DNA of 64,000 nucleotides from Acidobacteriota bacterium (GTDB taxonomy: Bacteria > Acidobacteriota > Vicinamibacteria > Vicinamibacterales > SCN-69-37). The stretch covers positions 1 to 64,000 of the forward strand of contig JADYYY010000019.1 of assembly GCA_020853395.1 (NCBI GenBank), in the 5' to 3' direction. The translations under genes and the position numbers were made by a program. Under the pieces are notes generated by a model that was not told the origin of the DNA, made no database searches, and saw only the letters and a program-made list of their open reading frames with translations. This document shows, in pieces, positions 53,049-62,563 of this stretch (position 1 is its first letter; each line of letters begins with the position of its first letter).

Positions 53049-53576
53049 ATGGAGACGTGGAAAGAGTTCGACGCGAACGAGCTGACCCACAGCGCCGCTC
53101 ACCACCTGCTCGCGATCCACGACGTCGGCGAGCCCTACGGCGGATGGGCGCGGGTGTCCGACATCGCGCGAGCCTTGAACATCACGCGAGGCAGCGTGTC
53201 GATCACGTTGCGCGTGCTCAAGAAGCGCGGATGGGTCGAGACCGACGCGCATCGCCTCGTCAAGCTCTCGCCAGCCGGCCTGCAGATCGCGCACTCGGTC
53301 AAGGCCAAGCGCGCCGTCGTGAAGGCGTTCCTGACGAGCGCGTTGGGTCTTCCGGAAGCGCAGGCCGAGATCGACAGTTGCAAGATCGAACACTTGATCA
53401 GCGACCAGACCGGCCAGCGGCTCATTCAGCTCATGCAGTTCCTGACCTGCGACAGTTCGGCCGCCATGGAACGGCTGACGTTCTTCCAGCGCGAGCCCGG
53501 CCCGTGCCCGACGACCGGCACGTGCGAGGTGTGCAAAGGGCACTGCCTCATGACCGATCTCGAGCGGGCCGTCTGA
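53049..53576 (+). CDS. DtxR/MntR-family metal-dependent regulator with C-terminal Cys cluster
   Basis: 175 residues. Winged helix: WARVSDIARALNITRGSVSITLRVLKKRGWV (about 33-63). The metal-sensing helix retains Cys111, Glu114 and His115 of the C-x2-EH pattern (EIDSCKIEHLIS). The other residues expected in DtxR (His79, Glu83, His98) align with Arg, Lys and Glu. After it comes an unusual Cys set (Cys134, 153, 159, 162, 166; CPTTGTCEVCKGHC). The protein thus lacks the SH3 domain of DtxR and may sense metal or redox state differently. It probably represses the TonB receptor and itself from the shared operator. No ribosome site precedes the ATG. Confidence 0.85.
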   Translation: METWKEFDANELTHSAAHHLLAIHDVGEPYGGWARVSDIARALNITRGSVSITLRVLKKRGWVETDAHRLVKLSPAGLQIAHSVKAKRAVVKAFLTSALGLPEAQAEIDSCKIEHLISDQTGQRLIQLMQFLTCDSSAAMERLTFFQREPGPCPTTGTCEVCKGHCLMTDLERAV

Positions 53577-53589
53577 CGCGGCGTCTCCC

Positions 53590-54045
53590 ATGAACCTCGA
53601 GGAGGTCGTCGACGAACTGAACCGGCTGATGGCCGAGGAGCTGGAAGCCTCGCTGCGCTATCTCCAGATGCGCTTCCGCCTGGCGGGTCCGGGACAGGGC
53701 TCGGCGGCGCAGTTCTTCGAAGACGCCACCCAGGAGACGCTGGAACATGCGCACGCGATCGCTCATCAGATCACGATGCTGGGCTTCGTCCCCGCGCTTC
53801 GAATCAACCTGACGCTCGACGGCGACCCGATCCCGCCGGAAGACGCGCTGGCCGAAGCGCTCGAGATCGAGCAGCAGGCGCTCGAGGCCTATCGCGAGTT
53901 CCTCCCGCGCGTCAGCGACTCGCCGCCGCTGGCCGCCTTCATCCAGCATCAGATCGACGTCGAGACCGAACACGTGCGGGAGATCCTCGCGATCGTCAAG
54001 CGAGCCTCTGCGCTGAGAGTCGTCGAGCCCGATCCCGGTTCCTAG
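53590..54045 (+). CDS. Bacterioferritin-like protein
   Basis: 151 residues in four helices. The first helix has MAEELEASLRYLQMRF with Glu17; the second has TLEHAHAIAHQITMLGF with E52-x2-H55; the third has ALEIEQQALEAYREF; the fourth has VETEHVREI with E125-x2-H128. This is the diiron ligand set of ferritins, used to oxidise and store iron. It follows the DtxR-family gene by 13 bases, so iron storage and the regulator are made together. The haem-binding Met of typical bacterioferritin may be absent. Confidence 0.88.
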   Translation: MNLEEVVDELNRLMAEELEASLRYLQMRFRLAGPGQGSAAQFFEDATQETLEHAHAIAHQITMLGFVPALRINLTLDGDPIPPEDALAEALEIEQQALEAYREFLPRVSDSPPLAAFIQHQIDVETEHVREILAIVKRASALRVVEPDPGS

Positions 54046-54635: not shown

Positions 54636-56366
54636 ATGCACGCCTACGACCTGATCCTCACGCTCACCGGCGGTCTCGGCGGTGCGCTCATCCTGGGCTA
54701 CATCACGCAGCGGCTCGGCCTGTCGCCGATCGTCGGCTACCTGCTGGCGGGCACGCTCGTCGGCCCGCACACGCCAGGATTCGTGGCGGACGCGGCGTTG
54801 GCCGAGCAACTCGCGGAGATCGGCGTCATCCTGCTGATGTTCGGCGTGGGCCTGCAGTTCCACATCGAGGAGCTGCTCGCGGTGCGCCACGTGGCCATCC
54901 CTGGCGCCGTCGCGCAGAGCGCCGTGGCCACCGTGCTCGGCGCTCTGCTGGTCCGCGCGTTCGGCTGGGACTGGTCGTCGGGTCTGGTCTTCGGGATGGC
55001 ACTCGCCGTGGCCAGCACGGTCGTCCTGGTGCGCGTGCTCTCCGACAACAACGATCTGCACACGCAGGCCGGGCACATCGCCGTCGGCTGGCTCGTCGTC
55101 GAGGACCTGTTCACCGTCATCGCGCTCGTGCTGCTGCCCGCGCTCTTCGGCGAGGCCACGGCCGGCACGCCGCTGTGGGTCGCGCTGGGGCTGACGGCCC
55201 TCAAGGTGTCGGCGCTCGTCGCGTTCACCGTGCTCGTCGGCACGCGCGTTATTCCCCGGGTGCTCGACTACGTCGCGGACACACGGTCGCGCGAGCTGTT
55301 CACGTTGACCGTTCTGGTCATCGCCCTGGGGATTGCCGTCGGGTCGTCGCTCGTCTTCAGCGTGTCGATGGCGCTCGGCGCGTTTCTCGCCGGGATGGTG
55401 GTGGGCCGCTCGGACTACAGCTTGCGAGCCGCCTCTGAAGCGCTGCCGATGCGCGACGCGTTCGCCGTGCTGTTCTTCGTCTCGGTGGGCATGCTGCTGG
55501 ATCCCGGTTCGCTGATGGCGTCGCCCGTGCTGGTCGCGGGCGCACTGGCGGTCGTGCTTTTCGGTAAGCCGCTCGTGGCGCTCCTGTTCGTCTGGGTCAT
55601 GAAGTATCCGTTCAGGACGGCCCTGACGGCAGGCATCGCGTTGGCGCAGATCGGCGAGTTCTCGTTCATCCTCGCGTCCGTCGGACGAGATCTGGGCGTG
55701 CTCACGCCCGAGGCCACGAACGTGCTCGTCGCCACGTCGATCGCGTCGATCGTGCTCAATCCGGTCGCGTACCGCACGATCCGGCCGATCGAACGGTGGG
55801 CGCTCGCGCGTCCGCGGCTGTGGGCGCTCTTGAACCGGCCATCCTCGGTTCCCGCGGACCTCGCGCGCTCGCGCCTCGACCGTGGCGATCCGAATCATCG
55901 GGCCGTCGTCATCGGCTTCGGGCCGACGGGCCGCACCGTCGTGCGGCTGTTGCGGGACAACGGCATCGCCCCGACGGTCGTCGAGCTCAACATGGACGCC
56001 GTGCGCGCGCTCCGGCAGAACGGCATCGACGCCATCTACGGCGATGCCACCCGTCCCGAGACGCTCGAAGCGGCCGGGATCGCGAAAGCCGGCAGCCTCA
56101 TCCTGGGTTCGGCCGGCATGGCGAACAGCGAGGAAGTGATTCGCACCGCGCGTACGGTGAATCCGCAGATCCGCGTGCTCGCGCGCGCCGCGTACCTGCG
56201 CGACGTCCCTCCGTTGAAAGCGGCCGGGGCGAACAGCGTCTACTCAGGGGAGGGCGAAGTCGCGCTCGCTTTCATCGAAGACATTCTGGACAATCTCGGT
56301 GCGACCCCCGAGCAAATCGACCGCGAACGCGCGCGGGCACACAGCGAGCTGGTCGGCAGCGCATGA
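54636..56366 (+). CDS. CPA2-family cation:proton antiporter (YbaL/RosB type)
   Basis: 576 residues with 12-13 membrane helices followed by a cytoplasmic TrkA-N (RCK) domain. Family motifs include LGLSPIVGYLLAGTLVGPHTPGFVAD, AEIGVILLMFGVGLQFHIEELL and VGWLVVEDLFTVIALVLLPALF with the conserved acid pair. The nucleotide-binding fold starts VVIGFGPTGRTVVRLL, near residue 425. It exchanges K+ or Na+ for H+ and is probably gated by bound nucleotides. It begins a set of genes with tight overlaps that runs to the SDR gene. Confidence 0.92.
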   Translation: MHAYDLILTLTGGLGGALILGYITQRLGLSPIVGYLLAGTLVGPHTPGFVADAALAEQLAEIGVILLMFGVGLQFHIEELLAVRHVAIPGAVAQSAVATVLGALLVRAFGWDWSSGLVFGMALAVASTVVLVRVLSDNNDLHTQAGHIAVGWLVVEDLFTVIALVLLPALFGEATAGTPLWVALGLTALKVSALVAFTVLVGTRVIPRVLDYVADTRSRELFTLTVLVIALGIAVGSSLVFSVSMALGAFLAGMVVGRSDYSLRAASEALPMRDAFAVLFFVSVGMLLDPGSLMASPVLVAGALAVVLFGKPLVALLFVWVMKYPFRTALTAGIALAQIGEFSFILASVGRDLGVLTPEATNVLVATSIASIVLNPVAYRTIRPIERWALARPRLWALLNRPSSVPADLARSRLDRGDPNHRAVVIGFGPTGRTVVRLLRDNGIAPTVVELNMDAVRALRQNGIDAIYGDATRPETLEAAGIAKAGSLILGSAGMANSEEVIRTARTVNPQIRVLARAAYLRDVPPLKAAGANSVYSGEGEVALAFIEDILDNLGATPEQIDRERARAHSELVGSA

Positions 56367-56398
56367 CGAAGGCGGCCGAGCGGATTCGAAGGAGTCAC

Positions 56399-56842
56399 AT
56401 GGCGAAGACGACGACACGCACACGTCGAGGCCGGCGGACGGGCCGGTTCACGCTGGACGAGGCGTTGATCGCGCTGTTCATCGGAGCGATGAACGCGAAC
56501 GATCACGTCGCGCCGGACGAGGCGGCGCGCGCCCAGCACTTGATCTGGTCGACACGGCGATTTCGGCGCAAGTCCGGAGACGCGGTGGGCAAGCTCACGC
56601 AGGAGATGCGGCGCCTGATCGAGGATTCGGACGCGAAAGCCGTGATCACGCGCGCGGCCCGGGCCGTTCCTGCCAAGCTTCGTCCATCCGCGTTCGCCTT
56701 GGTCGCGGATCTCTTGCTCGCGGACGGCGAGCTCGAGGGGCGAGAGCGACGGTTTCTCGTCGGGCTGGGCGGCGAACTGAAGCTGGACCAGGCCGCCGCG
56801 CGCCGGATCATCGACGTGATCGTGCTCAAGAACCAGCTCTGA
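56399..56842 (+). CDS. TerB-like protein
   Basis: 147 residues from ATG 56399, preceded by AAGGAG at 56389-56394. An alternative ATG at 56363 overlaps the antiporter stop (ATGA) and would add 12 residues. The basic start (TTTRTRRGRRTGR) is followed by helices carrying acidic loops AMNANDHVAPDEAARAQ and LLADGELEGRERRFL, which are typical of TerB metal-binding sites. TerB is linked to tellurite and stress responses at membranes. It separates the antiporter from the DUF1538 pair and may be a cofactor of either. Confidence 0.7.
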   Translation: MAKTTTRTRRGRRTGRFTLDEALIALFIGAMNANDHVAPDEAARAQHLIWSTRRFRRKSGDAVGKLTQEMRRLIEDSDAKAVITRAARAVPAKLRPSAFALVADLLLADGELEGRERRFLVGLGGELKLDQAAARRIIDVIVLKNQL

Positions 56843-56873
56843 CGCGCCCGGCTGCGTCGAACATCGGGTCGCC

Positions 56874-57563
56874 ATGCTCACACTTCTACGGACGAGGTTT
56901 CTGGAGACAGTCAAGGCGGTCGCGCCGCTCGTCGGCGTCGTCACCGCGCTCCAGGTCTCGATCGTCCAGGCGCCCGCGGCGTTGTTCGTCCAGTTCCTGG
57001 CGGGATCGGTGCTGGCGATGCTCGGGATGCTCCTGCTGTTCGCGGGAATCGACGGCGGCATTTTGCCCATGGGCAGGTTCATCGGTGCCGAGCTTCCGAG
57101 AAAGCAGTCGCTCTGGTTGATTCTGGGCGTCGCGTTCGCGCTGGGTTTCGCCACCACGGTCGCCGAGCCCGACGTCCTGGTCCTTGCAGGACAAGTCGAG
57201 CGCGCGTCTGAGGGCAGCCTCCGGAGCCACGTGCTCATCGTCATCATCGCGGTCGGCGTGGGGCTGTTCACGGCGATTGGACTCCTGCGCGTCGTGCGGG
57301 GGTTCTCCATGGCCGCGCTCCTGGCCACCGTGTACATCGTCATGATCGCGTTGTCGCTCGTCACGCCGGACAACTTCGTGCCGTTGGCGTACGACGCCGG
57401 GAGCGTGACGACCGGCGTGCTCACGGCGCCGGTGGTCCTTGCGCTCGCGCTGGGCCTCGCGTCGGTTCTCGGCGAACGATCGGCCGTCGACGACGGATTC
57501 GGGCTGCTCGGCCTGGCGTCGGCCGGGCCCGTCATCGCGGTGCTCTTGTTGGGCCTCCTGTGA
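56874..57563 (+). CDS. DUF1538 membrane protein A
   Basis: 229 residues with about six membrane helices. DUF1538 segments are LVGVVTALQVSIVQAPAAL, GMLLLFAGIDGGILPMGRFIGAELP, FALGFATTVAEPDVLVLAGQVE and LGLASAGPVIAVLLLGLL. The acidic motif TVAEPDVLVLAGQV within a helix is the best candidate for substrate or ion binding. The domain has no assigned activity. The second DUF1538 gene starts inside its stop codon (GTGA), so the two are probably a heterodimer. A PII-like protein follows. Confidence 0.82.
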   Translation: MLTLLRTRFLETVKAVAPLVGVVTALQVSIVQAPAALFVQFLAGSVLAMLGMLLLFAGIDGGILPMGRFIGAELPRKQSLWLILGVAFALGFATTVAEPDVLVLAGQVERASEGSLRSHVLIVIIAVGVGLFTAIGLLRVVRGFSMAALLATVYIVMIALSLVTPDNFVPLAYDAGSVTTGVLTAPVVLALALGLASVLGERSAVDDGFGLLGLASAGPVIAVLLLGLL

Positions 57564-58294
57564 ACGGCGCGCTGACGTTGACGGAGCTCGGCCGGCTCGC
57601 ATGGAGCGTCGCGGTGGCGGTCCTCCCGCTGGCCGCGCTGTTCCTGCTGTTTCAGTTGCTGTTTCTGAAGCTGCCGCGGCGCGAGGTGACCCGTCTCTTG
57701 ACCGGCACGCTCATGGCGTCCGCGGGGCTGTTCCTGTTTCTCGTCGGCGTCGGCATCGGGTTCCTGCCGTTCGGGCGCGTCATCGGCGAGGCCGTCGGCG
57801 CACTCCCGCAGAAGTGGCTGTTCGCGCCGTTCGGGATCGTGCTCGGCTTCGCGACGACGTGGGGGGAACCGGCCGTGCGCATCCTGGCGGACCAGGTGGA
57901 AGACACGTCGACCGGATCGATTCGGCGATCGCTCGTGCTCTGGGCGGTCTGCCTGGGCGTGGCGCTGGCCGTGGGCCTCGGCATGCTGCGCATTGCGTAC
58001 GGCATCCCGCTGCTGTATCTGCTCGTGCCTGGCTACGGATTCGTCGTCGCGATGCTCTGGTGGAGCGAGCGCCGGTTCGTGTCGATCGCCGTCGACGCCG
58101 GCGGCGTGGCGACGGGACCGCTGGCGAACACGTTCCTGCTGGCGCTCGCGTTCGGCACCTCTGCGGCCGTGGGCAATCAGGATCCGCTCGTCCAGGGGCT
58201 CGGGCTCGTGGCACTCATCGCGCTTGCGCCCCTGATCTCGGTGATGGCGCTGGGGTTGGTGGTGCGCTGGAAGGAGCGTCGAAAGGAGTCATGA
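57560..58294 (+). CDS. DUF1538 membrane protein B
   Basis: 244 residues, GTG start coupled to the first DUF1538 gene. It has six or seven helices with the equivalent motifs GVGIGFLPFGRVIGEAVG and GFATTWGEPAVRILADQVE, matching TTVAEPDVLVLAGQVE of protein A. The repeated motif shows the two proteins are homologues. Its stop overlaps the next start (ATGA). The terminal charged tail (KERRKES) is cytoplasmic by the positive-inside rule. The transported substrate is unknown. Confidence 0.82.
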   Translation: MNGALTLTELGRLAWSVAVAVLPLAALFLLFQLLFLKLPRREVTRLLTGTLMASAGLFLFLVGVGIGFLPFGRVIGEAVGALPQKWLFAPFGIVLGFATTWGEPAVRILADQVEDTSTGSIRRSLVLWAVCLGVALAVGLGMLRIAYGIPLLYLLVPGYGFVVAMLWWSERRFVSIAVDAGGVATGPLANTFLLALAFGTSAAVGNQDPLVQGLGLVALIALAPLISVMALGLVVRWKERRKES

Positions 58295-58632
58295 ACATGA
58301 CCAACGCCTCTCTCATCGTGAGCGTCGTCCGCAAGGGATGGGGCAGCACGGTGCTCGACGCTTCCGTGAAAGCGGGCGCGCGTGGCGGGACCGTGCTCTT
58401 CGGCCGCGGGGCCGGCATCCACGAACGGGAAAAGATCTTCGGCATGTCGATCGAGCCGGAGAAGGAGATCGTGCTGACGGTCGTCTACGCCGACCAGGTG
58501 GACACGGTCCTCAACGAGATCGTGCGCGCCGCGGAGCTGAACGACACCGGGCGTGGGATCGCGTTCGTGCTGTCCGTCGACCAGGTCGTGGGAGTGGCGC
58601 ACTTCATGAGGGACCGAGCGGAGAACGGGTGA
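58291..58632 (+). CDS. PII-like signalling protein
   Basis: 113 residues with an AAAGGAG ribosome site. The PII fold pattern is clear: ASLIVSVVRKGWGSTVLDASVKAGARGGTVLFGRG, then a T-loop region (AGIHEREKIFGMSIEPEKEIVLTVV) and NDTGRGIAFVLSVDQVVGV. The uridylylated Tyr51 of GlnB is absent and the T-loop is short, so this is not a canonical nitrogen regulator. PII-like proteins of this size (for example SbtB) bind adenine nucleotides and control a neighbouring transporter. Overlapping codons tie it to the DUF1538 pair, so it probably gates them. Confidence 0.82.
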   Translation: MNMTNASLIVSVVRKGWGSTVLDASVKAGARGGTVLFGRGAGIHEREKIFGMSIEPEKEIVLTVVYADQVDTVLNEIVRAAELNDTGRGIAFVLSVDQVVGVAHFMRDRAENG

Positions 58633-59567
58633 TTCAGGACATGGACGCCTTCAAGAGCATTCTCGTCGACATCGATGCCGCCGTCCCGGCGCATCCCGCC
58701 CTCGAACGCGCGATCCGCCTCGCCCGGGCTTCCGGCGCTCGGCTCACGATCGCGGATGTGATGACCGTTCCAGCGTACGCGCGACGCTATCTGCCGGCAG
58801 ACCTCGAAGAGGAGATGCTCGACCGTCGGCGTCAGCAGTTGGCGCGTCTGGCGCAGGCCGTGACGGGCGTGCGGGTCGAGGCCAAACTCCTGATCGGGCG
58901 GCCTGCGACCGCGCTCATTCAAGAAGTGCTGCGCTCGAACCACGACCTGCTCATGCGGTCGCACGCGCGGGACGTGACGGTCTCCGGTTTCCAGCCGTTC
59001 GGGGCCGTGGACATGGAGCTGCTGCGCAAGTGCCCCTGCTCGGTCTTGCTGGTTCGGCACGGCGCCCTGGAAGAGCACCCTCAGATCGTCGGGGCGGTCA
59101 ACGCCAGCACCGAGGAGCCCTCCGAACACGCGCTGAACGCCAAGATCGTCGAGACGATGCTGCTCATGGCGGAGCTGGAAGGCGGCGTGCCGATGTTGCT
59201 GCACGCCTGGGCTCCGTTCGCCGAGCACATGGTCCGCAGTCACTCGCCGGACGATGCCTTCGCGGCCTACGTGGAAGACGCGCGGCAGCGTACTGCGGGG
59301 GACTTGAGGCACCTGGCCCAGTCGTTCGGCGAGCGCCTCTCGGGCGTGCAGGTCGTGCATCGCCGCGGCGAGCCGGAGGCCGTCATCCCCGAGTTCGTCG
59401 TGGCGCAGGGCATCGATCTCGTGATCATGGGCACGGTCGCGCGCGGCGGCATCGCCGGCCTGCTCATCGGCAACACGGCCGAACGCGTGCTGCGAAGGCT
59501 GCCGTGCTCGGTGCTCGCCGTCAAGCCGGATGGATTCGTCTGTCCCGTGCGGCTCGACGGCGTCTAG
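58629..59567 (+). CDS. Universal stress protein, tandem UspA domains
   Basis: 312 residues from GTG 58629, overlapping the PII-like stop (GTGA) and with GGAG 5 bases upstream; an ATG 12 bases further in is an alternative. Two UspA domains: the first (FKSILVDIDAAVPAHPALERAIRLA) lacks an intact ATP motif, and the second has GTVARGGIAGLLIGNTAERVL, the G-x2-G-x9-G-type nucleotide site. Usp proteins sense ATP and support stress survival. Linkage with a PII-like protein and membrane partners suggests control of ion or energy state. Confidence 0.85.
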   Translation: MIQDMDAFKSILVDIDAAVPAHPALERAIRLARASGARLTIADVMTVPAYARRYLPADLEEEMLDRRRQQLARLAQAVTGVRVEAKLLIGRPATALIQEVLRSNHDLLMRSHARDVTVSGFQPFGAVDMELLRKCPCSVLLVRHGALEEHPQIVGAVNASTEEPSEHALNAKIVETMLLMAELEGGVPMLLHAWAPFAEHMVRSHSPDDAFAAYVEDARQRTAGDLRHLAQSFGERLSGVQVVHRRGEPEAVIPEFVVAQGIDLVIMGTVARGGIAGLLIGNTAERVLRRLPCSVLAVKPDGFVCPVRLDGV

Positions 59568-60895: not shown

Positions 60896-60989
60896 GGTGA
60901 GGTGGCCGAGTGGCTGAAGGCGGCGGTTTGCTAAACCGTTATACGGCCTAAAAGCTGTATCCAGGGTTCGAATCCCTGCCTCACCGCCA
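60896..60989 (+). tRNA. tRNA-Ser (GCU)
   Basis: The acceptor stem GGTGAGG pairs with CCTCACC, with discriminator G and encoded CCA (60987-60989). The anticodon loop TTGCTAA has anticodon GCT at 60930-60932, reading AGC and AGU. The T arm GGGTTCGAATCCC is standard, and the long variable arm typical of tRNA-Ser is present. It ends 119 bases before gltX. Confidence 0.97.
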
Positions 60990-61108: not shown

Positions 61109-62563
61109 GTGTCCTCGTCCGTCCGCGTTCGCTTCGCCCCGTCGCCCACCGGCTATCTCCACATCGGAGGCGCGCGCACCGCGCTCTTCAACTGGCTCTA
61201 CGCCCGTCGGCACGGCGGCACCTTCATCCTGAGGATCGAAGACACCGACGTCGAGCGGTCGTCGGCCGACATGACGGCCGGCATCCTCGAGAGCCTCCGC
61301 TGGCTCGGCCTCGACTGGGACGAAGGGCCCCTCGTCGGCGGCCCGCACGGACCCTATCTGCAGAGCGAGCGGCTGGCGCTCTATCGCGAGGCGGCCGCGC
61401 GCCTCGTGAGCGCCGACGCGGCGTACTACTGCTACTGCCGGCCCGAAGATCTGAACGCGAAACGGCAGGCCGCCGAGTCCGCCGGCACGGCATGGAAGTA
61501 CGACCGGACGTGCCGCGCGCTTTCCGCCGACGAGATCGCCGCGCGCGAGCGTGCCGGCGTGCCGCGCGCTGTCCGCTTCCTCGTGCCGGCGGGCGAGACG
61601 TCGTTCGACGACAGCGTCCGCGGCCGCATCACCATCGCGCACGAGCACATCGAGGACTTCGTGATCCTCCGATCCGACGGCCATCCGACCTACCAGCTCT
61701 CGGTCGTCGTGGACGATGCGGCGATGGGCGTCACGGAAGTGGTGCGCGGCGACGACCACATCTCGAACACGCCGAAACAGGTGCTGCTCTACCGCGCGCT
61801 CGGCGCGCCCGTCCCCGGCTTCGCGCACGTGCCGCTCATCCTCGGGCCGGATCGCAAGCGCCTGAGCAAACGCCACGGCGCCACCTCCGTCGGCGAGTAC
61901 GAGGCGCAAGGCTACCTGCCGGAGGCGATGGTCAACTTCCTCGCGCTGCTCGGCTGGTCGCCCGGCAGCGGCGATCAGGAAGTGTTCGGCCGCGACGAGC
62001 TCGTCGCCCGCTTCGCGCTCACGGGCATCAGCGGCGGCAACGCGATCTTCAACCCGGAGAAGCTCGACTGGTTCAACCAGCAGCACATCGTGCGCATGCC
62101 GGCGGCGGAGATCCTGCGGCGCCTGCGTCCGCGACTCGACGCGGCCGGGCTGTGGCGCGCCGCCTTCGAGTCGGACCTGCGACCGTGGATAGAGGCGGTT
62201 GTCGATCTCGTGAAACCCCGCGCTCGCAAGCTCGACGACATCGTCAGCCAGATCCGTCCGTTCGTCGCCGACACCGTCGAACGCGACGAGGCGGCGGTGA
62301 CGAAGTACCTCGTGGCGCCGGAGATTCCCGAGCTGCTCGACGCGTTGCGGCAGCGGCTGCAGGACGTCGAGCCGTTCGACGCCGCGACGATCGAGTTGGC
62401 GCTGCGGCGGCTCGCCGACGAGCGCGGCGTCAAAGCCGGCCCGCTAATCCACGCAACGCGCGTGGCCGTTACGGGACAGGCGGTCAGTCCCGGGCTCTTC
62501 GAGGTGCTGGAGCTCATTGGCCGCGACCGCGTGCTCGCGAGGCTGGAGAATGCCGGTGCGTAG
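61109..62563 (+). CDS. gltX: Glutamyl-tRNA synthetase
   Basis: 484 residues from GTG 61109. Class I signatures: PSPTGYLHIGGARTALFNWL (HIGH motif near residue 17) and KRLSKRHGATSVGEYEAQGYLPEA (KMSKS near residue 250). The zinc-knuckle region reads YYCYCRPEDLNAKRQ. The C-terminal anticodon-binding domain is present. It charges tRNA-Glu in the cytoplasm. Its last 14 bases overlap the first possible start of the DNA glycosylase gene. Confidence 0.97.
   Translation: MSSSVRVRFAPSPTGYLHIGGARTALFNWLYARRHGGTFILRIEDTDVERSSADMTAGILESLRWLGLDWDEGPLVGGPHGPYLQSERLALYREAAARLVSADAAYYCYCRPEDLNAKRQAAESAGTAWKYDRTCRALSADEIAARERAGVPRAVRFLVPAGETSFDDSVRGRITIAHEHIEDFVILRSDGHPTYQLSVVVDDAAMGVTEVVRGDDHISNTPKQVLLYRALGAPVPGFAHVPLILGPDRKRLSKRHGATSVGEYEAQGYLPEAMVNFLALLGWSPGSGDQEVFGRDELVARFALTGISGGNAIFNPEKLDWFNQQHIVRMPAAEILRRLRPRLDAAGLWRAAFESDLRPWIEAVVDLVKPRARKLDDIVSQIRPFVADTVERDEAAVTKYLVAPEIPELLDALRQRLQDVEPFDAATIELALRRLADERGVKAGPLIHATRVAVTGQAVSPGLFEVLELIGRDRVLARLENAGA

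Follow-up and report, generated by a model that had tools for sequence, protein, structure and literature searches.

A PII-like gene is the near-constant neighbour of DUF1538 transporter genes in bacteria and archaea and may encode their gate

At 54636-59567 of a 64,000-nucleotide stretch of contig JADYYY010000019.1 from an Acidobacteriota bacterium (assembly GCA_020853395.1; this whole stretch is hereafter the window), two genes for DUF1538 membrane proteins, here called A and B, are followed by a gene for a small PII-like protein, within a run of six genes that all lie on the + strand. The part of this run that is conserved elsewhere is smaller than the six-gene unit: it consists of DUF1538 A, DUF1538 B and the PII-like gene, a three-gene core found across bacteria and archaea. 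On balance, we lean towards the view that the PII-like protein docks on, and gates in response to a ligand, a DUF1538 antiporter that exchanges Na+ or K+ for H+. We are evenly divided over the broader proposal that a new PII clade is the overlooked, near-universal gate of antiparallel, two-gene DUF1538/UmpAB cation/proton antiporters with a fold new to the PDB; bacteria and archaea would then have their alkali-cation and pH homeostasis under PII, through chains that contain one, two or three PII domains depending on lineage.

DUF1538 loci were gathered from a scan of named genomes (80 loci), plasmid records, draws of genomes from individual phyla, and extra loci and regions. The named set comprises the 80 loci picked by similarity to window B; the phylum draws were not picked in this way, but their best-scoring loci were taken first, and the phylum labels were inferred from anchor organisms. 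A DUF1538 match occurred in 18 of 396 Acidobacteriota genomes (16 over the cut-off), in 126/398 genomes of the phylum with a Burkholderiaceae anchor, in 84/249 with a Bacillota anchor (where a repeat draw gave mostly the same genomes), in 8/198 with a Pseudodesulfovibrio anchor and in 23/148 with a Methanolobus anchor. The resulting 379 clusters were deduplicated to 336 and, after 25 with less than 900 base pairs of DUF1538 had been dropped, to 311 full-length units; the count covers fetched loci, so that a matching genome without one does not enter it. A PII gene was scored as linked when its domain started within 700 nucleotides (nt) downstream on the same strand. Such a gene lies directly downstream in 297 of the 311 units, from bacteria and archaea alike, which bears out the first-pass annotation in regarding the PII-like protein as the partner of the DUF1538 pair. 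Three further units stop at a contig end, two carry PII upstream and nine are without it. Linkage was found in every Acidobacteriota unit (12/12), in 114/121 and 65/67 units from the Burkholderiaceae-anchor and Bacillota-anchor phyla, in 7/7 and 19/19 from the Pseudodesulfovibrio-anchor and Methanolobus-anchor phyla, in 75 of the named 80 and in all five plasmid units. Both DUF1538 domains share one open reading frame (ORF) in 95 of the 297 linked units and are divided between two ORFs in the other 202.

The association also holds in the reverse direction. When a profile made from DUF1538-linked PIIs (alignment A3) was run against 357 Acidobacteriota genomes, 13 passed a threshold of 100 bits, at 109-148 bits, while the next best reached 49 bits, the level of ordinary PII. 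The 13 genomes with DUF1538 above its cut-off are these same 13, in a comparison that leaves out G055, with a single 23.5-bit DUF1538 match unsupported by our own DUF1538 profile, as well as G391 and G374, in which PII adjoins DUF1538 and which were evidently absent from the 357-genome draw. Distances among PIIs correlate with those among B proteins (r=0.86 over 152 split, single-PII units; best of 500 shuffles, 0.085), and the corresponding value for A with B is 0.96.

Both membrane proteins of the window fill the Pfam DUF1538 model PF07556 over profile positions 2-211, far above its cut-off of 22.6: A (229 amino acids (aa); 56874-57563) at 213.1 bits and B (244 aa, GTG start; 57560-58294) at 215.7 bits. 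A is the UmpA-like half (122.9 bits to the NCBIfam UmpA model NF041627, 105.9 to the UmpB model NF041628) and B the UmpB-like half (103.6 to UmpB, 83.7 to UmpA), the equivalog cut-offs being 490 and 500. By these scores the pair is a family relative of UmpAB, not a proven UmpAB. The latter, from Halomonas zhaodongensis, is described in the accessible part of PMC5484666 as a heterodimer that performs pH-dependent Na+(Li+,K+)/H+ antiport and is active as a cloned pair in Escherichia coli KNabc; assays on everted vesicles gave K0.5 values for three cations. A homologue has thus already been characterised, contrary to the first-pass opinion that the transporter was undescribed. The window pair resembles UmpAB in being tandem, homologous DUF1538 membrane proteins encoded by overlapping genes in the order A then B, with conserved acids, and PII adjoins related pairs in Pseudomonadota too, five of which score 316-391 bits against the UmpA/UmpB models. 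It differs in falling under both equivalog cut-offs; moreover, PMC5484666 makes no mention of PII, and an antiparallel arrangement of the halves is not discussed in its accessible part.

Each half carries a conserved Glu and a conserved Asp. In A these are the Glu of an AEP motif (residue 98; codon 57165-57167) and the Asp of AYDAGSVTTG (residue 174; 57393-57395); in B, the Glu of GEP (residue 103; 57866-57868) and the Asp of AVDAGGVATG (residue 179; 58094-58096). The shared acid motif noticed in the first reading of the sequence is thereby upheld. The Glu column of split A proteins is near-invariant (E 196, D 8 and gap 3 of 207) and the Asp column invariant (207/207), while split B proteins have both acids in 207/207. 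Among 97 fused proteins the first half has Glu in 94 and Asp in two at the first site, Asp in 89 and Glu in seven at the second; the second half has each acid in 96/97. Glu, Asp and an Arg are common to the whole DUF1538 family.

The two halves appear to be mirror images in the membrane. Segments were assigned by the secondary structure seen in the model of a fused homologue from Mobilisporobacter senegalensis (L087; predicted local distance difference test score (pLDDT) 91.8, predicted template modelling score 0.89), and Lys plus Arg on the odd loops (N-terminus, 2-3, 4-5 and 6-7) were compared with those on the even loops. The charge difference, counted over 208 split rows in which the window is entered twice, is positive in 202 A proteins, zero in five and negative in one, and negative in all 208 B proteins; fused proteins (n=97) show a positive first half in 94 and zero in three, with a negative second half in all 97. 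The window itself has 6 versus 2 such residues in A and 2 versus 12 in B. Homologous halves therefore show the opposite positive-inside bias known from dual-topology and inverted-repeat transporters and, by the positive-inside rule, A, with seven predicted transmembrane segments, is predicted to be N-in/C-out and B N-out/C-in, so that the halves would be antiparallel. The L087 model has two interrupted helices per half, at the Glu-Pro and the Asp-(Ser/Ala)-Gly motifs; a comparison with the PDB gave no confident match for it. Together with the fused ORF of 95/297 linked units and the homologous heterodimer (PMC5484666, accessible part), these opposed loop charges favour the original suggestion that the DUF1538 proteins are two halves of one transporter.

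The PII-like protein (58297-58632; 111 aa, or 113 aa from an ATG at 58291) belongs to the PII superfamily by Pfam (P-II, PF00543; 32.3 bits against a cut-off of 25) and is modelled with the PII fold at pLDDT 86.5. Its T-loop region (residues 40-56 counted from 58291; 58408-58458) is a low-confidence loop, and the alignment agrees with the initial remark that a counterpart of GlnB Tyr51 is lacking; in 167 single PIIs beside DUF1538, the equivalent column holds Phe in 63% and Leu in 32%. Canonical PII proteins also use Lys90 in their ligand pocket. Judged by Tyr51, Lys58 and position 90 (where Lys or Arg was accepted), the window protein stands outside canonical GlnB/GlnK, and Lys58 too has a role in the pocket according to the accessible part of PMC4285133. 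Since all three residues are absent, the protein probably reads its ligand differently from GlnB/GlnK; the loss of Lys58 and Lys90 weighs against ordinary ATP/2-oxoglutarate sensing. Two ordinary Tyr51 PIIs are encoded elsewhere in the same genome, beside an AmtB-like gene, so the window protein is a third, separate PII. Across DUF1538 units, 242 PII ORFs have one domain, 85 have two and two have three. The triple chains (369 aa, L375:3324-4433, - strand; 381 aa, L376:3388-4533, - strand), both from the Pseudodesulfovibrio phylum draw, are the covalent equivalent of a trimer and adjoin fused DUF1538 proteins (713 and 706 aa) that include a large soluble linker and an insert. Among other arrangements, locus L066 (4967-8753, + strand) has one double-domain PII gene between two fused DUF1538 genes, and the module occurs on mobilizable or conjugative plasmids of Methylocystis rosea and Chelativorans (L111 and L112), where the PII is annotated 'P-II family nitrogen regulator', yet is not GlnB/GlnK by the residues checked.

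In the mechanism that we favour, the products of A and B (genes within 56874-58632, with PII) would form one transporter with a predicted Na+/H+ or K+/H+ exchange activity. Lying antiparallel in the membrane, as an inverted repeat at the level of genes, each half would contribute two broken, acid-bearing helices, whose paired Glu/Asp sites are predicted to bind cation or proton in turn. A PII trimer would dock at the cytoplasmic face with its T-loops touching the transporter, and a small bound ligand, probably an adenine nucleotide, would set the gating. PII binding would most likely inhibit exchange, in the manner of GlnK on AmtB and SbtB on SbtA. Because UmpAB works as a cloned pair, the PII should be a brake or tuner and not a required subunit.

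A 2015 review (PMC4285133, accessible part) gives direct contact as the mode of PII action in every case then known. PIIs are linked to the transport of ammonium, nitrate, urea and bicarbonate, and those that gate a transporter have so far acted on trimeric ones (accessible part of PMC10710835), so that a 3:3 assembly is the natural prediction for the present system. Relative to GlnK-AmtB, the transporter family is a different one, the window PII has no Tyr51 and the genome keeps its ordinary PIIs beside an AmtB-like gene elsewhere. In SbtB-SbtA, a PII-like protein controls a bicarbonate transporter in response to AMP, although SbtA is not known to be a DUF1538 protein. PII-NG, a group of PIIs with a link to metal efflux by CzcABC (PMC7726332, accessible part), likewise pairs a divergent PII with the genes of a proton-coupled cation exporter; CzcABC belongs to the RND pumps, however, and no CzcABC genes adjoin the window PII.

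Several observations weigh against gating of a cation/proton antiporter by the PII. Nine of the 311 units have no detectable PII. Three of the PII-less loci, from Sutcliffiella/Bacillus horikoshii (L055, L082 and L101), keep a split pair with no PII in the fetched 16 kilobases (kb), which cover more than 8 kb downstream; PII is dispensable there, and these are natural losses of the regulator. No ORF in the 311-unit census fuses DUF1538 with PII, and the PII-B distance correlation could be explained by shared inheritance alone. The scores of A (122.9/490) and B (103.6/500) are so far under the UmpA/UmpB cut-offs that the ion assigned to the window pair is transferred from distant relatives. In the PII, the canonical Lys58 and Lys90 are replaced by Glu and Ile (phmmer and MAFFT alignments agree). 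UmpAB is reported as a heterodimer (PMC5484666), whereas the known PII-gated transporters are trimeric (PMC10710835; both sources in their accessible parts). Finally, a search of the locus found no sigma-70-like promoter or usable terminator that would bound a transcript.

The pair might instead move a substrate other than Na+ or K+, such as an anion, ammonium or bicarbonate, with the PII tuning uptake or efflux to the carbon, nitrogen or energy state. The substrates of the known transporter-linked PIIs (PMC10710835) agree with this, and the antiporter assignment comes from one system in E. coli, under whose models the window pair scores poorly; yet antiport of three cations was measured in everted vesicles (PMC5484666), Glu, Asp and Arg are family-wide, and DUF1538 is named among pH-adaptation genes in the accessible part of PMC13255231, and we consider another substrate unlikely, if worth serious attention. 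A further thought is that the PII leaves transport ungated and instead serves in assembly or as a chaperone, or has a different target. One candidate target is a CBS-domain protein: when 213 units were considered for the next gene downstream (123 had too little flank and 16 no candidate), a CBS gene directly followed PII in 35 of the 74 co-directional genes scanned, many from Pseudomonadota (for example L370:9955-10359, + strand), mostly with about 135 aa and a 4-nt overlap. The lack of DUF1538-PII fusions would also suit such a role. DUF1538 is nevertheless the constant neighbour, the CBS gene being absent from the window and, as far as seen, from archaeal and most Bacillota loci, and a PII that leaves transport ungated seems improbable to us. 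As CBS domains often bind adenine nucleotides (PMC10710835, accessible part), their presence fits nucleotide control in the relatives that carry them; for the window system such control is plausible from the PII fold and the CBS gene of relatives, tempered by the loss of the canonical Lys58 and Lys90.

A last alternative takes all six genes as a stress operon acting jointly, much as the first-pass annotation did. Upstream of the core are a gene (54636-56366) whose product is a CPA2 antiporter of YbaL/KefC type that includes a TrkA_N domain (495.8 bits to the YbaL model, cut-off 700) and a weakly matching TerB-like gene (56399-56842, or from 56363; 26.6 bits, cut-off 24.4), and downstream is a co-directional gene for a double-domain, UspE-like Usp protein (58629-59567; UspE 164.1 bits, cut-off 227). 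The six genes and their order were confirmed by ORFs and profile matches, and their shared direction and short gaps or possible overlaps would suit joint action. Similar neighbours recur sporadically: in L033 and L034 a same-strand Usp gene lies within 250 nt upstream of the pair, and CPA2-type genes within 450 nt on the same strand flank L042 (both sides) and L062, other matches being farther away or on the opposite strand. TerB, by contrast, matched in none of the scanned DUF1538 loci, in G014 Usp sits 2.2 kb from the DUF1538 unit, and in G391, a genome of the same family, the 14-kb locus L366 has no TerB, CPA2 or Usp match while keeping the three-gene core (230, 244 and 107 aa). Most census loci have just 1.5 to 4 kb of flank, many 1.5 kb, so these counts concern near neighbours, distant linkage lying beyond that range. 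The three outer genes are not conserved neighbours of DUF1538 units and lie outside the core; their membership in the system is not borne out, and a joint operon is, in our estimation, quite improbable. Nor does the Usp protein look like the proposed ATP sensor, as the glycine motif of its second domain is degenerate (G..A..........N against the ATP-binding consensus G-2x-G-9x-G(S/T)).

Every start from A to Usp had been read as overlapping the previous stop. This stands for A to B, through GTGA at 57560, and is ambiguous at the PII and Usp junctions. The PII gene offers two ATG codons, an overlapping one at 58291 and a non-overlapping one at 58297; AAAGGAG at 58282-58288 lies 2 nt before the former and 8 nt before the latter, a ribosome site that appears better placed for the second codon, and the identical protein in the database is the 111-aa form starting there. 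Usp may start at GTG 58629 (overlapping) or ATG 58641 (non-overlapping), and TerB at ATG 56399, led by AAGGAG, or at the overlapping ATG 56363; the gap from TerB to A is 31 nt. Across the census a start codon with a 4-nt overlap is available at only 71 of 293 DUF1538-to-PII junctions. Since overlap is not a conserved trait, it is no sign of the fixed stoichiometry once read from it.

Farther out, 590 nt upstream of the CPA2 gene, are genes for an MntR/DtxR-like regulator (53049-53576) and then a ferritin-like protein (53590-54045), possibly a metal-responsive pair. An SDR gene lies downstream of the six-gene stretch, and tRNA-Ser (gct) at 60896-60989 is followed by a glutamyl-tRNA synthetase-type gene at 61109-62563.

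No published link between PII and DUF1538 was found in the open-licence literature of PubMed Central; when papers on DUF1538 and on cable bacteria were searched for PII or P-II, the sole match was a sequence motif. PII-gated transporters and DUF1538 antiporters were each already known, and what appears new is the constant pairing of both. Most of what is known of PII proteins concerns the control of nitrogen and carbon. If the gating proposed here is true, ion and pH homeostasis would join the processes regulated by PII, across bacteria and archaea, and every genome with DUF1538 would hold a named partner to test. The question of how UmpAB is regulated becomes a simple comparison of A/B with and without PII. 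Should A and B lie antiparallel as predicted, they would be a further example of an inverted repeat divided between two genes, beside the fused versions in Bacillota.

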